From Candidatus Peribacteria bacterium (GTDB taxonomy: Bacteria; Patescibacteriota; Gracilibacteria; Peribacterales; Peribacteraceae), in the NCBI GenBank assembly GCA_943354555.1, contig CALRCM010000008.1:1-33565 (forward strand): a stretch of 33,565 nt of DNA. Direction: 5' to 3'. The number at the start of each line of letters is the position of its first letter. Within the stretch, counting starts at the first letter, position 1. The notes under the pieces were generated by a model. It worked only from the letters and a program-made list of their open reading frames with translations. It was not told the origin of the DNA and did no database searches. Both the position numbers and the translations under genes were made by a program. Below are positions 1,596 through 23,736 of this stretch, one piece after another.

Positions 1596-1627
1596 AAAAA
1601 GCTCCCTCCGCACAAGGCGGAGGGAGC
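1596..1627 (-). terminator. Rho-independent terminator of the cupin gene cluster
   Basis: A perfect 11-bp stem (GCTCCCTCCGC / GCGGAGGGAGC) with a 5-nt loop is followed on the minus strand by five T residues. It lies about 30 bp after the cupin stop codon and separates the cluster from pnp. Confidence 0.88.
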
Positions 1628-1656: not shown

Positions 1657-2217
1657 TTAGAGGGCATCAACAACGGCCTTCAAAGCATCGAAGCTGAAGG
1701 ATGGCGCACCAAAGCGCATAATGTCGAAGCTACCGTCATCATGCCGGATGCGCGGTGCAACAAACGCAATGGCGGAAAATCGATCTCCCGAACCTGGTGT
1801 GAAGAAATGCAACACACCCGGATCGATGATAAAAGGCTTCCCAGGAACCGCAGGTTCAAACGTGAGTTCAAACCTTTGTTCACCCGGATTGTACGGACCG
1901 GTATAGGTGCCGCCCACGCAGCGCTCGAATCCCTCATCGGAGCCAAGGGGAAGAAAGATGCTCCTCCCTGCAAAATGCACATGCGGCTCCGTACACCGCT
2001 CCGCCTGCATTAAAACCACCTCACATATCGCCGGATCCAGACCGTGCTTTGCGCACAGAGATGCAAGAATCCGCGGACTCATAAAGCCGATCTGAAATCC
2101 ATCCAGAGTTTGGACGTTAGAGGAAAACAATGGATTACTGCCTAGTGCCTTCCGGTGACTGGGCAATTTGGACGTTCTACGCTGAACATCCTGAAGAAAT
2201 GAAAGGTTCGATAGCAT
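1657..2217 (-). CDS. Cupin-fold protein, function unknown
   Basis: A soluble protein of about 186 residues. The centre and C-terminal half have cupin features: the metal-site-like HVHFAGRS segment about halfway along, a Gly/Pro-rich turn region, then IDPGVLHFFTPGSGDRF, which carries the second cupin motif with a His. The substrate cannot be told from sequence. The ATG at 2217 has a good Shine-Dalgarno (AAGGAG, 6-7 nt upstream); a GTG one codon earlier (2220) is less well spaced. It is the last gene of a minus-strand series of TrpR-like regulator, two related small proteins and this gene, and is closed by the terminator at 1596-1627. Co-regulation by the repressor is inferred from position only. 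Confidence 0.72.
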   Translation of the reverse strand: MLSNLSFLQDVQRRTSKLPSHRKALGSNPLFSSNVQTLDGFQIGFMSPRILASLCAKHGLDPAICEVVLMQAERCTEPHVHFAGRSIFLPLGSDEGFERCVGGTYTGPYNPGEQRFELTFEPAVPGKPFIIDPGVLHFFTPGSGDRFSAIAFVAPRIRHDDGSFDIMRFGAPSFSFDALKAVVDAL

Positions 2218-2279
2218 CACTCTCTCCTTTTAGAAATTGGATAACTGCTGATCTCCACCCGACATGGGAGGAGAAACAA

Positions 2280-2573
2280 TCAACAGGTCCAATACGGAAA
2301 AACTTCTCTGCCACTCCATGGATCGTAGACCCAATGTTGCGGGTAAACGTCGTTTCTTTTGTAGAGATCGCGCTCATCACCGATGCAGGCGTAACGGGGA
2401 GTCACCCGTTCGCTGTCCAAGGACCACCCACCAGCCTGAAAACTAACAGGCGAACAGAAGCACTGCAAAGCTCTGTTATAGTGCAAATCTTTCAAAAGCA
2501 GTCCACAAACAGGATGAAAGCGCATCCCCTCTCCGCGATTCAGTTGATCCCGTGTATATAGTCGTTCGAACAT
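2280..2573 (-). CDS. Small protein of unknown family, shorter relative of the 2813-3259 protein
   Basis: 97 residues, not recognised. It aligns over most of its length with the C-terminal half of the neighbour at 2813-3259. Both carry GMR(F/W)HPV.G, then a central GGWS, then HW.(Y/F)DP..G near the end. This looks like a tandem duplication followed by divergence. It lacks the roughly 55-residue N-terminal part of its relative. The start is well supported: AAGGAGG lies 4-5 nt before the ATG. Cys and aromatic residues are frequent, with no signal peptide or membrane segment. The cupin gene follows 62 bp downstream. Confidence 0.75.
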   Translation of the reverse strand: MFERLYTRDQLNRGEGMRFHPVCGLLLKDLHYNRALQCFCSPVSFQAGGWSLDSERVTPRYACIGDERDLYKRNDVYPQHWVYDPWSGREVFPYWTC

Positions 2574-2670
2574 ATGCCCTCCTTACCGTTGTTGTAAAAG
2601 ATCTGCAGCCAAGACTCGCAATAGCGAATCAGCCCTACTCACAAGAGCAGAGCGCGCTACAGACAGCTTT

Positions 2671-2751
2671 TCATATACATACAATCTCCAGAGCGCTCCA
2701 CTCGTGTAGGGAGAGCCACCAAGCGCCGACGGGGGAATGGGTAAACAGCAT
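2671..2751 (-). CDS. Possible 26-codon Trp-rich leader peptide
   Basis: An ATG at 2751 directly follows the operator-like palindrome at 2753-2772. It opens a 26-codon frame containing a WW pair (codons 11-12) and a third Trp at codon 18, ending in TGA. It lies 98 bp before the small gene starting at 2573. A 7-bp hairpin with a 4-nt loop (GATTCGC / GCGAGTC, one G-T pair) lies further down the leader, but no strong T-run follows it. Tandem Trp codons beside a TrpR-like repressor recall attenuation leaders. No ribosome site is visible and another frame is also open here, so this is tentative. Confidence 0.3.
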   Translation of the reverse strand: MLFTHSPVGAWWLSLHEWSALEIVCI

Positions 2752-2752
2752 A

Positions 2753-2772
2753 TGTAATGATGTACCGTTACA
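2753..2772. promoter_or_regulatory. Operator-like palindrome, site 1
   Basis: TGTAATGATGTACCGTTACA, a 20-bp imperfect palindrome with perfect TGTAA/TTACA ends. Sixteen of its bases (2757-2772) recur exactly at 3258-3273, and 15 of 20 match the palindrome at 3630-3649 when read in reverse complement. All three lie upstream of genes of one cluster that includes a TrpR-like repressor. Binding by that repressor is inferred. Confidence 0.6.
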
Positions 2773-2812
2773 AAAGTACATTAGGTAATAGGTCGATGTC
2801 AAATGCCCATGC

Positions 2813-3259
2813 TTACTTTTTTAAAGGAATTCCTGTCTGTGGATCGAAGTTCCAGTGCACAAGCGGAAAATCCGCCACTGTGTGGGGCTTACCGTCACCA
2901 ATGCGTGGAAGCTCTTTCTTCTCTGCTGATGAAGGACTCCACCCTCCACTGCTGCTCGTTGCCAATATCAATGTGCGATTGATCGGCTCAAATACTGTCT
3001 GAGCACCCTCCATCCAAGTACCACTCACTGGATGCCACCTCATGCCAAAGGTTCCCTGATCAATATCATCGGAAGAATATTCAGGCGGAGAAGCCTCTGG
3101 ATCCGGATTGGTCACCACAACTGCGGATATGTCCTGCCTCACCACATCCAAAGCAGGAATCACGACATCGTTGCGCAAGGGCATGTCGTCAGAAGACATG
3201 GACAATGCACACGTACGGTATGCATCGCCGCCAAAATCGGTGTGATCGAGAAGTGACAT
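2813..3259 (-). CDS. Protein of unknown family, longer relative of the 2280-2573 protein
   Basis: 148 residues, acidic, no signal peptide or membrane segment, not recognised. The C-terminal half (from about residue 70) shares the GMR(W/F)HPV.G, GGWS and HW.(F/Y)DP..G blocks with the next gene downstream. The N-terminal 70 residues have no counterpart there. The ATG at 3259 overlaps the operator-like sequence and has no Shine-Dalgarno. A TGTAAT -10-like hexamer lies 16 nt upstream (3276-3281), so the message would have a very short leader. It sits 59 bp after the stop of the TrpR-like gene, which suggests both read-through from that gene and a promoter of its own. Confidence 0.72.
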   Translation of the reverse strand: MSLLDHTDFGGDAYRTCALSMSSDDMPLRNDVVIPALDVVRQDISAVVVTNPDPEASPPEYSSDDIDQGTFGMRWHPVSGTWMEGAQTVFEPINRTLILATSSSGGWSPSSAEKKELPRIGDGKPHTVADFPLVHWNFDPQTGIPLKK

Positions 3260-3281
3260 GATGTACCGTTACATCATTACA
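3254..3281. promoter_or_regulatory. Operator-like palindromes, site 2 (two overlapping)
   Basis: Two overlapping copies of the 20-bp site: 3254-3273, with an identical 16-base core to site 1, and 3262-3281 (TGTACCGTTACATCATTACA). Together they cover the start codon of the gene at 2813-3259 and its candidate -10 (TGTAAT on the minus strand, 3276-3281). A bound repressor would block transcription there. Confidence 0.6.
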
Positions 3282-3318
3282 TTTTCCGAAAGGAAAATCA
3301 AGAAAACCGATGACCGTT

Positions 3319-3612
3319 TTATCGCTTCTGTTTGCGGAGCTTCTTGAGGAAATACAGAAATCCCCCGCTGCCGAACTGGAGCATCCGTGACCCCCGCGTG
3401 ATCTTGCTGATGCTCACTCCGAGCTGATCGGCGATCTCGCGCTGCGCAACGCCTTCATCGAGCATGCGGATCAGCTGCCAGCGCTCGGCAAGGCTCCCGA
3501 GCTCCTGCGGCGTCAGCATGTCCTGCAGCAGCATTTCGGCCTCACGCGGGCTTTGGGCCGCGGCAAAGAGGCGATACAGACTCTTGAGATCGGGATCAAT
3601 CGTACGGGGCAT
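3319..3612 (-). CDS. TrpR/YerC-like DNA-binding repressor
   Basis: 97 residues, the usual length for the Trp-repressor superfamily (TrpR, YerC/YecD). The helical core has LLQDMLTPQELGSLAERWQL, then a helix-turn-helix at about residues 54-80 (AQREIADQLGVSISKITRGS), with the ITRGS recognition-helix pattern of TrpR. Whether it binds tryptophan cannot be judged; YerC-type relatives often have no assigned ligand. A TATAGT -10 (3620-3625) lies 7 nt before the ATG, so translation is probably leaderless. An operator-like palindrome (3630-3649) covers the -35/spacer zone, implying autorepression. Two more such sites precede the downstream genes. Confidence 0.88.
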   Translation of the reverse strand: MPRTIDPDLKSLYRLFAAAQSPREAEMLLQDMLTPQELGSLAERWQLIRMLDEGVAQREIADQLGVSISKITRGSRMLQFGSGGFLYFLKKLRKQKR

Positions 3613-3619
3613 GCAAAGG

Positions 3620-3649
3620 ACTATACCACTGTGACGGTACGGCGGTACA
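3620..3649 (-). promoter_or_regulatory. Promoter and operator-like site 3 of the TrpR-like gene
   Basis: The -10 is TATAGT (3620-3625 on the minus strand), 7 nt before the start codon. The palindrome TGTGACGGTACGGCGGTACA (3630-3649) occupies the spacer and -35 area and shares the ACGGTAC core and TGT/ACA ends with sites 1 and 2. The arrangement is typical of an autorepressed gene. Confidence 0.6.
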
Positions 3650-3659
3650 GGTTTTTCTT

Positions 3660-5864
3660 TTACTCTGTCTCAAGAGGCCGATAGAAGAGTCTCCGGACAC
3701 CCGAGACCATGCGGTCAAACAGACTCGGACGCTCTGCATCGGGAGGACTTTCGCAGTCGGTTCCCACATATGAGAAATCTTCAGCAGAACCATCCGTTTC
3801 TGGTCGCAGTCTCCAGCGATTGAGAATGCACTCCGTGTGGCAACCGGTGGTATAAGGGCAGATTGTGGGTACAGGAGCGCTAGTCGTAACGTCCCTTCTG
3901 CGAAGTCCGGCGGTCGGGACACCAGTAAGTCCTGCGGGGCCCGGTAGTGCGGCAGAGGTGGAAGCCGACTCCCCCGGAGTCGTGCATGTGCTCGGCTGTC
4001 CGGTAAAGCTATTGGGGAGATAGCTGCATACACCGACACTGAGTCCCAGATGACAACCGGCAGGAGAGCTGCAGAACGAAAAAACCGCTGCGGGAGTGGG
4101 TGATGCAGGCCATACAGGACTCGTCGCAGGGCCTGCGGGTACGAATGGAGCTACGGGCGTAGGACCGGAAGGAGGCACAAATGATGGCGACGCCGGAGAG
4201 GTGGTAGGCGCAAGAGACGTGGCTGGTACAGGGACAACAGGCGCTGTGGGAATAGTAGGAAGGACGGGAATAACTGGAGCTATAGGAGCAATAGGAGGGA
4301 CAAGAGATGATGGAGGAGGAGCATTACAAGTACGGGATCCTATGGGTCCTGTGCAATTTAATCCCCCACAACAATACGATGGAATCATGCAGCTGTCTCC
4401 GGGATTCCCGCAGCAGGAAGCGGATCCTGTGCAGTTACTATCAGCGCAATCTGCAGCACCGTCGCAGTCGTCGTCCTGACCGTTACCACACTCGCTTGTG
4501 GGACCTACTCCAAGCGCGGACTCGTATGCGGCACAGCATACAGTCGCATTGCAGGATCCGAGAACGCCCGATGTACGTCGACACATCGTGCCATCCGCAC
4601 AATCTGTTACATCTAGACAATCCGCATATCCGTCAGAATCATTATCGACCAAATCGCTGCACCTTGTTTGTTCATTGCCTAGGGGGCAGATAGGATTCCC
4701 TGTGCAATTCGAATCCATGCAATCAGTAGTGCCATCGCAGTCATTGTCCAGTGAGTCGTTGCAAAGACCGACTTCTGAACCTGCCCCCAAACACACGCAT
4801 GCACCACCGTTACACACCTTACCATGAAGGGCACAAGACTGCCCTGAGCAATCAAGCGTATCCGCACAATCAGCAAGTGTATCATTATCTTCCGAATCAT
4901 CACCATTCCCATCCCAACAATTTGTTTCGAAGCCGTCACAAACACCTGACATACACGACTGACTGGCAACCGTACATGCGCAATCAATACAGTTACTGCA
5001 ATTTTCCGTTCCTGCGCATATGCCATTGCCACAGAGTAAAGGGGGCGGGGTGCAGATACCCGCTATGCACAAACCTCCACCCGGGCAACCGCAGTCCGCA
5101 CAAATGCATGTCTCTGGAGCCAGACACACAGTGTCATTTGTGCAGAATGGTGGAGGAAACGGGATGCACGATCCCACATTACACACGTTACCTCCGGTAC
5201 ACACAACGTCCGCAGGGCACGTCATGCAATTCTCGCCTGCCTCGATTGAACCATTGCCGCACGTGCCAGCCTGACACGTCCCGAGGTTGCAGCTATTGGC
5301 CGCTGGATTGCAACAGGGCTTTGGCATGGGTGTCAGCACTCCCCCCATGCAGCACCCGACACTCTGATTACACCCTGTACCATTAACGGCTACGCAGGCA
5401 GGTGGACATGCAGGAGTTCCCGCGGGGCAACCGCCACCGCCTCCGGGAACGCCGCCACCGCCCGCGGGAGGACCCCCGCATGGAACGCCTCCCATGCAAA
5501 CACCAGCTGATCCATTACATGTTGAACCACACATGCCTGGTAAAGGACAAGCTGCTCCCGCATTCTTATAGCAATACTTCACTCCTACGCTACAACTGAC
5601 AAAAAGAAGACCACCTTGAGCAGCACAATCCATGGAAGAGGCAACCGGTCCGAATATACAACCATTGCCAGCCCCTGCGGGAGGACAACTACCGCCTCCA
5701 CCAAAGAGACCACCAATGAACGATGCTTGCAGTGATGGAGGACTCTGACGTAAATATAAATATGCTGGCAGTGCGGAAAGAGCGGCTAAAACAAGCGCCA
5801 AAGCAAACGCCGATCTTGAGCACTTGAGATACCCAATAGTTCTGGACCTCCGCTTCAGCGCCAT
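3660..5864 (-). CDS. Large secreted or anchored Cys-rich surface protein with calcium-site-like repeats
   Basis: About 734 residues. A basic start is followed by one hydrophobic segment (about residues 17-40), a signal anchor or signal peptide. A Gly/Cys-rich region has CGNG..E.GENC..C modules. Four repeats of about 30 residues follow with the core D.D.DG..DC.D..C (for example DNDCDGTTDCMDSNC), resembling MopE-type or other Asp-rich metal-binding repeats. A Pro/Ala/Thr-rich stalk of about 80 residues comes next. The last 65 residues match the end of the protein at 9173-11161: CPY, GCH.EC, WR.R, then RPSLF and SG..RLFYRP. I chose the ATG at 5864 because the charged residues then precede the membrane segment; an in-frame ATG at 5891 is possible. 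Role in surface structure or adhesion is inferred. Confidence 0.82.
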   Translation of the reverse strand: MALKRRSRTIGYLKCSRSAFALALVLAALSALPAYLYLRQSPPSLQASFIGGLFGGGGSCPPAGAGNGCIFGPVASSMDCAAQGGLLFVSCSVGVKYCYKNAGAACPLPGMCGSTCNGSAGVCMGGVPCGGPPAGGGGVPGGGGGCPAGTPACPPACVAVNGTGCNQSVGCCMGGVLTPMPKPCCNPAANSCNLGTCQAGTCGNGSIEAGENCMTCPADVVCTGGNVCNVGSCIPFPPPFCTNDTVCLAPETCICADCGCPGGGLCIAGICTPPPLLCGNGICAGTENCSNCIDCACTVASQSCMSGVCDGFETNCWDGNGDDSEDNDTLADCADTLDCSGQSCALHGKVCNGGACVCLGAGSEVGLCNDSLDNDCDGTTDCMDSNCTGNPICPLGNEQTRCSDLVDNDSDGYADCLDVTDCADGTMCRRTSGVLGSCNATVCCAAYESALGVGPTSECGNGQDDDCDGAADCADSNCTGSASCCGNPGDSCMIPSYCCGGLNCTGPIGSRTCNAPPPSSLVPPIAPIAPVIPVLPTIPTAPVVPVPATSLAPTTSPASPSFVPPSGPTPVAPFVPAGPATSPVWPASPTPAAVFSFCSSPAGCHLGLSVGVCSYLPNSFTGQPSTCTTPGESASTSAALPGPAGLTGVPTAGLRRRDVTTSAPVPTICPYTTGCHTECILNRWRLRPETDGSAEDFSYVGTDCESPPDAERPSLFDRMVSGVRRLFYRPLETE

Positions 5865-5939
5865 AATTGAAACAATGTATACCAATCCCACGATGGACTA
5901 TGTATTGCGCTTACGCGGAAACGATTCGGCGTAATAGCT

Positions 5940-6929: not shown

Positions 6930-7199
6930 CTACTTCTTGAGCTTATTCTTCTCCAGTACTACCTGATAATCATCGGGCTTATTCATGCGGAGGTAGTTTA
7001 AAAGCGTACGGCGCTTGGCGACTTTACCCAAAAGCCCACGGCGTGCGGAGTGATCTTTCTTGTGCTCCTGCAAATGATCTGTCAGGAAACTAATTTCGGT
7101 TGTAAGGATGCCCACCTGCACCTGTGGTGATCCCGTGTCCTTTTCGTGTGTGCGGTGCTTGGTAATGAGACGCTTTTTCTGGGGACGCTTGAGCGACAT
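6930..7199 (-). CDS. rpsO: Ribosomal protein uS15
   Basis: 89 residues, the normal S15 length. The family core is plain: HEKDTGSPQVQVGILT, FLTDHLQEHKKDHSARRGLL and KRRTLLNYL near the end. S15 binds the central domain of 16S rRNA during small-subunit assembly. The ATG at 7199 is supported because the conserved N-terminus starts right after it. No Shine-Dalgarno is visible. In many bacteria rpsO is followed directly by pnp; here pnp is 5.5 kb downstream with unrelated genes between. An 85-nt GC-rich leader precedes it and may be autoregulatory. Confidence 0.97.
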   Translation of the reverse strand: MSLKRPQKKRLITKHRTHEKDTGSPQVQVGILTTEISFLTDHLQEHKKDHSARRGLLGKVAKRRTLLNYLRMNKPDDYQVVLEKNKLKK

Positions 7200-7319
7200 A
7201 AGAGAAGGGGGTACAGGCAAAGAAACAGGTGGAGAGATTTCCACGCAGTGCCACCCGAGGCGAAGTCCGCACCCAGGAGCACCACGGGAACATTCTAGTG
7301 AGAATGGAGGATTTGGCAA
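7200..7319 (-). promoter_or_regulatory. rpsO promoter and structured leader
   Basis: A -35 TTGCCA (7314-7319), 16-bp spacer and -10 TAGAAT (7292-7297) on the minus strand give a start near 7285. The resulting leader of about 85 nt is GC-rich and can form hairpins (for example GTGGA...TCCAC close to the gene, and GTGC...GCAC). S15 often represses its own translation through such leaders, but structures differ between lineages, so the regulatory role is only a suggestion. Confidence 0.5.
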
Positions 7320-23184: not shown

Positions 23185-23736
23185 CTACTTCTTCATTGCT
23201 TCGATAGCTGCCGTGACTTTTGCCTGGAGCTTCACTCTGGGAGCTGCAATGCAGGTATCGCGCTCGTCGCCCGTCTTGTCTGTACAGGTGTCCAGGGCAA
23301 TCTTCGCTTCGCTGTGCAGTGCCATGCGCAGTTGCTCCATAAATCCGGCAATAAACGCGCGGGTGCGGGAAGGCGCATTACTCCCTTCCTCGCGCACATC
23401 GCTGCGTGCATCCTTGATACGGTGACGCAACGCGCTCATGAGCTTACCGTGAGAACGGTCCTTGTGTTCACCACGTGCAGTCGTCTGCAGCTTCACCAGT
23501 TCCAGACACCGTGTACGGTCATCGCCGGCGAGCTTTTCGCAGCGATGCTCCGCCTTGATCTCCACTTCGGCATCATCATCTTCCTCGACGGAAGAGCCGC
23601 TCTGGGAGAGAGCAGCAGCCGATGCATGATGGGCGCGAACGCCGAATCCAAAACCCATGGCCAACGAAGGAGCGGGAACAGCAACCATCATAAGACTCGC
23701 AGTGAGGCTACTCAGGAAACGAATGAAACGATCCAT
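23185..23736 (-). CDS. Secreted small protein of unknown function
   Basis: 183 residues. The signal peptide is plain: MDRFIRFLSS, a hydrophobic core, and a cleavage site near PSLA (about residue 26). The mature part is charged and helical with two Cys pairs of similar context, C-x8-RC (CEKLAGDDRTRC) and C-x9-C (CTDKTGDERDTC), suggesting two related disulfide motifs. It lies 94 bp after the DUF5667-like gene, on the same strand as the sigma factor, and has its own terminator. It may be the periplasmic or external end of that signalling set. A near-palindrome AGAGACCAGTCTCT (23772-23785) precedes it. Confidence 0.78.
   Translation of the reverse strand: MDRFIRFLSSLTASLMMVAVPAPSLAMGFGFGVRAHHASAAALSQSGSSVEEDDDAEVEIKAEHRCEKLAGDDRTRCLELVKLQTTARGEHKDRSHGKLMSALRHRIKDARSDVREEGSNAPSRTRAFIAGFMEQLRMALHSEAKIALDTCTDKTGDERDTCIAAPRVKLQAKVTAAIEAMKK

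Follow-up and report, generated by a model that had tools for sequence, protein, structure and literature searches.

The trpR locus

The window analysed here is a 33,565-nt stretch of contig CALRCM010000008.1 (assembly GCA_943354555.1) from a 1.16-Mb draft genome of Candidatus Peribacteria (93% complete, 70 contigs; labelled G000). A minus-strand gene cluster in it encodes a TrpR-type repressor, and we consider it likely that this is a tryptophan (Trp)-responsive control locus that combines TrpR-type repression with attenuation at Trp codons. Such dual control is well supported by comparison, where the sequence evidence covers the operators, the promoter layout, the leader peptide, two covarying alternative helices and the association with trp genes in relatives. 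On the minus strand, the order is rpsO, two further genes, trpR, small protein 2, small protein 1, a cupin-like gene, a terminator-like hairpin and pnp:

6930-7319, minus strand: rpsO, read from the sequence
3319-3612, minus strand: trpR, a TrpR-type repressor of 97 aa, with a PF01371 match and orthologues in the family and in named Peribacteria relatives
2813-3259, minus strand: small protein 2, 148 aa, a Trp-conserving domain from about residue 60 on
2280-2573, minus strand: small protein 1, 97 aa, ending ...PYWTC-stop, of the same family as small protein 2
1657-2220 (ATG at 2217), minus strand: cupin-like protein with HxH-type motifs and one other homologue
1601-1627, minus strand: strong intrinsic-terminator-like hairpin, 3' of the last (cupin-like) gene
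after this hairpin and past the window edge, minus strand: pnp, read from the sequence

Across Candidatus Peribacteria, trpR orthologues commonly lie between rpsO and pnp, and the trpR-pnp interval is therefore a variable slot. An earlier interpretation of this DNA (the sequence-only reading) had described a self-contained regulon under a TrpR/YerC-like repressor, closed by a cupin gene and a terminator; the strong hairpin at 1627-1601(-) agrees with the last of these.

A TrpR-type repressor and its operators

The 97-aa protein passed the Pfam Trp_repressor model PF01371 with 81.7 bits (cut-off 27), in keeping with the TrpR-superfamily protein that the sequence-only reading had placed at 3319-3612. 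Most genomes of the family carry an orthologue, the nearest among named relatives being in metagenome-assembled genomes of Candidatus Peribacteria/Peregrinibacteria. The protein has the TRGS signature and retains equivalents of E. coli TrpR T44, R54, R84 and G85. Its NCBIfam score is higher for TrpR (equivalog TIGR01321, 56.9 bits) than for YerC (yecD_yerC TIGR02531, 37.2 bits), both below their cut-offs of 67.25 and 42.2, respectively, and because the TIGR01321 cut-off was missed, the protein was filed as TrpR-type and not as a strict equivalog. Judged by its sequence, the repressor is nearer to TrpR than to YerC/HisR. Two side observations concern related proteins: a second, distant TrpR-like protein (29% identity) is encoded on another contig of the same genome (G000 C2:37313-37561), with counterparts in many genomes of the family, and G018 carries a diverged trpR together with a diverged operator, GTACTGATGTACCGGTAC, which occurs at several places in that genome (contigs C7, C11 and C35), one of them an 8-bp tandem pair.

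Comparison with relatives fixed the operator consensus as TGTACCGTTGTAACGGTACA, an 18-20-bp palindrome whose geometry is that of the E. coli trp operator, in which the half-sites in the 18-mer register read GTACCGTT-GT-AACGGTAC. Perfect GTACCGTTGTAACGGTAC copies lie downstream of trpR in several genera. The 16.5 kb flanking trpR orthologues contain 12 sites with 0-2 mismatches, whereas the remaining 508 kb of these loci have a single one. The motif published for TrpR reads TGTAcTnGTnnACnAgTACA, and YerC (HisR) binds cacTTTAnnnnnnTAAAgtg with histidine (PMC9413887). The geometry and ends of the operators described here fit TrpR rather than HisR, whose operator cacTTTAnnnnnnTAAAgtg is not matched by the consensus. 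The following sites and promoter elements were assigned in the window:

2797-2802, minus strand: -35 box TTGACA for the site 1 promoter, with an equally placed box in the congeners G002 and G003
2761-2780 (18-mer 2762-2779), minus strand: operator site 1, TGTACTTTTGTAACGGTACA, 2 mismatches, with same-place sites in G002 and G003
3296-3301, minus strand: -35 box TTGATT of the small protein 2 promoter, in the family promoter layout
3262-3281 (18-mer 3263-3280), minus strand: operator site 2, TGTAATGATGTAACGGTACA, 3 mismatches, overlapping the -10 region
3623-3648, minus strand: putative autoregulatory operator 5' of trpR, in two registers (3623-3640 and 3631-3648) forming an 8-bp tandem

The ATG of small protein 2 stands 3 nt past the 18-mer of site 2; this site is identical in G004 and has 3 mismatches to the consensus in G002, with the same gene downstream in both. 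The site before trpR has 4 mismatches to the consensus (3623-3640), a similar one precedes trpR in the congener G003 (L148), and the repressor probably acts on its own gene. An operator was found just past the trpR stop in 30 of 67 non-redundant loci. In 27 of these 30, the operator is preceded at -22 or -21 by the TTG of a -35 box, and in 20 an ATG stands 0-3 nt past the operator, a spacing which indicates that the operator covers the -10 region. The conserved promoter (TTGATT, 16-18 nt, TA[AC][CT]G[AT]) likewise has its -10 region overlapped by the operator, and we infer that many transcripts are nearly without a 5' leader.

The sequence-only reading had described three matching palindromes and treated their loss before the same genes in relatives as grounds for abandoning the regulon. 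The operator-like sites before the next two transcription units proved to be conserved there. The repeats themselves were also recovered (identity is 88% over the 26 nt of 2757-2782 and 3258-3283, and complementarity 75% over the 20 nt of 2753-2772 and 3630-3649), but not their registers: its site 1 (2753-2772) is 8 bp off and its site 3 is the outer of two tandem registers. As primary operators, 2753-2772 and 3630-3649 were dropped, since the registers common to relatives lie 8 bp away.

Nor is the regulon self-contained, as another good operator lies on a different contig (G000:C1:68508-68525). This was the only further one-mismatch site in genome-wide scans, which were pattern searches, and it may be a further TrpR target; a 3-mismatch match at window position 23444 is probably due to chance. 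The C1 operator (L062:6509-6526) has the same position in each of the four congeners examined (the own genome, G002, G003 and G004). Immediately after it come a TTGACA promoter and a 23-codon leader-like open reading frame (ORF), MNLHPFLLPVRFIRCKKQTEGIA, which is itself conserved, and then conserved, apparently noncoding sequence with no Rfam match.

A Trp leader peptide and a bistable RNA

Between site 1 and small protein 1 lies a short ORF with three Trp codons, overlapping an RNA with two alternative folds:

2671-2751, minus strand: leader peptide ORF MLFTHSPVGAWWLSLHEWSALEIVCI, 26 codons with Trp at codons 11, 12 and 19, from comparison with congeners
2716-2730, minus strand: RNA segment 1, over the tandem Trp codons
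2594-2703, minus strand: bistable RNA element, from covariance models R1 and R2 and covariation in both folds
2693-2703, minus strand: RNA segment 2, part of the bistable RNA
2645-2655, minus strand: RNA segment 3, part of the bistable RNA
2632-2640, minus strand: RNA segment 4, part of the bistable RNA
2613-2630, minus strand: P3 hairpin, part of the bistable RNA
2601-2610, minus strand: P1 3' arm, part of the bistable RNA
2578-2584, minus strand: ribosome-binding site of small protein 1, from the sequence

The leader ORF starts ten nt past site 1, and leaders in the same place in G002 (MTCTLSPVGAWWLSTSEWSALAIELF) and G003 (MIYALSPVGAWRRSTHEWSALEIVSN) show that a leader peptide with Trp codons, one hallmark of an attenuator, is conserved between species. 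In other genera, separate Trp leaders begin at the operator (MNTSLTIKGQNWWSANN, MITTLSEPAVSNTLLASMGSSWWN and MNTIFTSHRQDWWLADC), as do 70-aa ORFs ending GTGWWGCGG, and several of these leaders are followed by a hairpin and a T-run before the next gene. Sequence and folds indicate that in the G049 leader GCTGCACAGTC and GACTTTGCAGC can pair as an antiterminator, which competes both with a Trp-codon hairpin and with an ATCCCC...GGGGAT-T7 hairpin.

RNAalifold analysis of four leaders gave an 18-pair helix joining segments 2 and 3. With a covariance model, homologues of the RNA were found in 18 of 353 genomes of the class, in about ten genera. The 13 best sense-strand matches all belong to this family, and ten of them share a contig with trpR, each at most 2.2 kb from it. 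In an alignment of 12 elements, pairing reaches 94.4% in helix 2:3, with 6 doubly changed pairs, and 91.0% in helices 3:4 and P1 together, with 7, so that two mutually exclusive folds, a second hallmark of an attenuator, both covary. Slid controls were 30-59% and 32-47% paired, and no shuffle attained either covariation score, although this control disregards relatedness (three of the 12 sequences are mutual congeners) and does not amount to a probability. After the model had been rebuilt from the 12 elements, it recovered a held-out element in G016, directly past a leader ending ...GWWGCGG-stop and before trpG-trpE. Weak matches away from trpR were also seen in one genus (G041 C14:160724, G223 C58:78282 and G056 C33:20964), that of G223 preceding a small ORF of an unassigned family.

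The RNA tends to adjoin the end of a Trp-containing reading frame. In 8 of the 13 elements, the stop of a frame of at least 20 codons lies at most 3 nt from the RNA 5' end and Trp is among the last six codons, an arrangement seen at 0.96% of control positions; some of the upstream proteins are mutually related, and so the eight cases are not all independent. The usual pattern is Trp-x(3-4)-stop, and the proteins concerned include an amino-acid racemase ending SWRLCS, a TrpE-like enzyme ending NWNSSE and small proteins ending WRRSA, WRAQR, WRPPA or WAATA. A count of C-terminal Trp across all ORFs of the trpR-pnp intervals (15 of 67) was diluted by spurious ORFs and was replaced by this RNA-anchored test. 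An Rfam search with the leader and the conserved C1 RNA returned nothing at the gathering threshold and noise below it.

In the trp-type loci of several relatives, T-runs follow the downstream hairpin, in line with transcription induced by starvation. Taken together, the Trp-rich leader peptide, the promoter architecture, the bistable RNA and the link to tryptophan identify the likely signal; none of them figured in the sequence-only reading, whose regulon picture was incomplete.

trp genes in relatives

In many genomes, the gene next or adjacent to trpR encodes a chorismate-binding enzyme (a TrpG-TrpE fusion or TrpE) or is trpB-trpA, names that were assigned from sequence and from PF00425 and PF00290 matches. 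A one-mismatch operator lies 14 nt upstream of the start of a TrpE-type gene in G029. Neither a PF00425 (chorismate-binding enzyme) nor a PF00290 (trpA) protein was found in the own genome or its four congeners, while the positive controls were detected in all 14 reference genomes; for the own genome, the absence of these enzymes is likely in a draft that is 93% complete. Many members of the lineage are without the trp genes searched for. In three loci of other genera (L095, L110 and L079), a TIGR04076 protein adjoins trpR, followed in L095 and L110 by a protein of about 375 aa of an unassigned family, whose sequence we take to be faintly reminiscent of the indoleamine dioxygenase superfamily.

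The putative target proteins

The two small proteins belong to one family, as the sequence-only reading had suspected, with invariant residues H20, P21, G24 and W81 (small protein 1 numbering). When the 353 genomes were searched with a profile, 10 of them yielded 15 matches in all, of which 14 are in trpR-pnp slots and the remaining one is on a short contig adjoining the same RNA; in G037, a member lies 3' of a TrpE-like gene and the bistable RNA. By these sequence searches, the family is new and confined to the trpR-pnp locus. The small proteins had no match in PHROGs or in a PDB sequence search, and the AlphaFold model of small protein 1, despite a predicted local distance difference test score (pLDDT) of 86, had no PDB fold match with E below 2.

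For the cupin assignment made in the sequence-only reading, the support seen consists of HxH and PG..H motifs. The protein matched no Pfam or NCBIfam model, and its AlphaFold model, from two sequences only, was poor (pLDDT 45). A homologue occurs in just one other of 96 genomes, likewise between trpR and pnp, and the two share HVH and PG-x-x-HFF motifs. That sole other copy is in G049 (L157), where 178-3092 nt past trpR comprise a Trp leader, a 293-aa protein, an Asp/Glu-type racemase, a 215-aa protein and the cupin-like gene; the bistable RNA lies between the racemase and 215-aa genes. In the window, a probably secreted, Cys-rich protein of 743 aa (3660-5891(-)) is inserted between rpsO and trpR; it has acidic double-disulfide repeats and a match to NF033662 below cut-off.

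Proposed mechanism and alternative explanations

We propose that the repressor, presumably Trp-loaded, binds palindromes over the -10 region that nearly touch the next start codon, such that plentiful Trp would shut off transcription, probably including that of trpR itself. Past site 1, a ribosome would translate the 26-codon leader, and its stalling or not at the tandem Trp codons would decide between folds 2:3 and 3:4, and in this way control small protein 1 expression and probably that of the cupin-like gene. In relatives, the same RNA would act between genes, beside the Trp codons that end the upstream gene, while in the own genome the dual control would have been kept for small Trp-conserving proteins in place of a trp operon. 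Trp as co-repressor, stalling at Trp codons and induction under Trp starvation are inferred from sequence comparison. More tentatively, the RNA may represent a family of intercistronic attenuators that read the terminal Trp-x(3-4)-stop codons of ordinary genes and are kept in apparently Trp-auxotrophic bacteria, tying Trp-conserving small proteins, perhaps anti-TRAP-like regulators, to the Trp supply.

Several observations weigh against this mechanism. It is counter-intuitive that Trp-conserving proteins should be expressed under Trp starvation, and no Trp leader of the MLFTHSPVGAWWLSLHEWSALEIVCI kind precedes small protein 2, which lies behind operator site 2. The run after the window RNA is only UCUUUUAC, a short U-run, and masking of the ribosome-binding site, computed as a possible output of the RNA for 12 elements, showed no consistent difference between states. 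The window operators carry 2-4 mismatches, and 37 of the 67 loci have no operator just downstream of trpR. The repressor itself fell short of the TIGR01321 cut-off, and the equivalents of E. coli T81 and S88 are replaced.

In a rival reading, the sense of the RNA is reversed, with plentiful Trp favouring a 3:4 fold that leaves the downstream gene on and limits production of Trp-conserving proteins to times when Trp is present. We regard this as unlikely but worth keeping in view: the targets do conserve Trp residues, no clear terminator U-run follows the window RNA, and in 8 of 12 elements the 3:4 state exposes the ribosome-binding site slightly more. These accessibility differences are small and inconsistent, however, and both the T-runs after the corresponding hairpin in trp-type loci and the upstream TrpR operators give the sense of starvation induction.

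Less probable still is a repressor of HisR/YerC type, or another TrpR homologue, sensing something besides tryptophan. Superfamily membership would allow this, the top matches in a PDB sequence search were YerC-like proteins, the TrpR equivalog cut-off was missed and T81 and S88 are not retained. Against it, the TrpR score exceeds the YerC score, the TRGS signature and the equivalents of R54, R84, G85 and T44 are retained, operator ends and spacing match TrpR and not the HisR motif (PMC9413887), trp genes adjoin, and Trp leader peptides sit behind the repressor's operators. The YerC/HisR assignment was dropped, as motif, score and gene context all disagree with it; of the earlier label 'TrpR/YerC-like', the first half stands, whereas the second conflicts with the TrpR-type operators, the TRGS signature and the trp-gene neighbours.

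That the palindromes, leader ORF and RNA are functionless, decaying relics of a lost trp operon, as the missing trp genes and imperfect window operators might suggest, is hardly credible when the leader, the -35 box, the operator and the two competing helices persist across species and genera, with compensatory changes, and the small-protein family has invariant residues across genera.

Comparison with known systems

It is textbook knowledge that tryptophan synthesis is controlled by TrpR repression and by ribosome-mediated attenuation, and no report of either in Candidate Phyla Radiation bacteria was found in the literature searched. The locus proposed here is unusual in pairing the two without detectable Trp synthesis genes, in an RNA that is intergenic at Trp-ending genes and in targets without assigned function, and it suggests that these cells monitor tryptophan for a purpose besides making it. 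If this is true, the locus offers a route to ask what amino-acid-dependent uncultured bacteria do once tryptophan runs out, a promoter and an RNA usable as E. coli reporters, and a physiological context for several uncharacterised protein families.

A close parallel is the E. coli trp operon (TrpR and TrpL), with which the locus shares the repressor Pfam family, an 18-20-bp palindrome with GTAC ends, a tandem-Trp leader peptide and mutually exclusive 2:3 and 3:4 pairing. It differs in that no trp biosynthetic targets were found at the window locus, the operator core is CCGTT and not of the CTAGT type, the operator nearly touches the start codon, the window lacks a clear terminator, and the RNA of relatives is also intergenic, after Trp codons of an upstream structural gene. 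The anti-TRAP operon of Bacillus subtilis also has a Trp-codon leader peptide. Anti-TRAP (AT, rtpA) is likewise a small, unfamiliar-looking protein, induced by a lack of charged tRNA-Trp, although it is under T-box control and has no known sequence relation to the proteins described here (PMC11255114). HisR/YerC regulons have the same Pfam family, a 20-bp palindrome and frequent autoregulation, but a different consensus, histidine as co-repressor and his-gene targets (PMC9413887). Chlamydia trachomatis, with its trpRBA operon and YtgR WWW attenuation, is comparable in its host dependence, reduced Trp synthesis and combination of TrpR with Trp-codon control, whereas its targets are trpBA and its WWW motif works through a second repressor in trans (PMC7755916).

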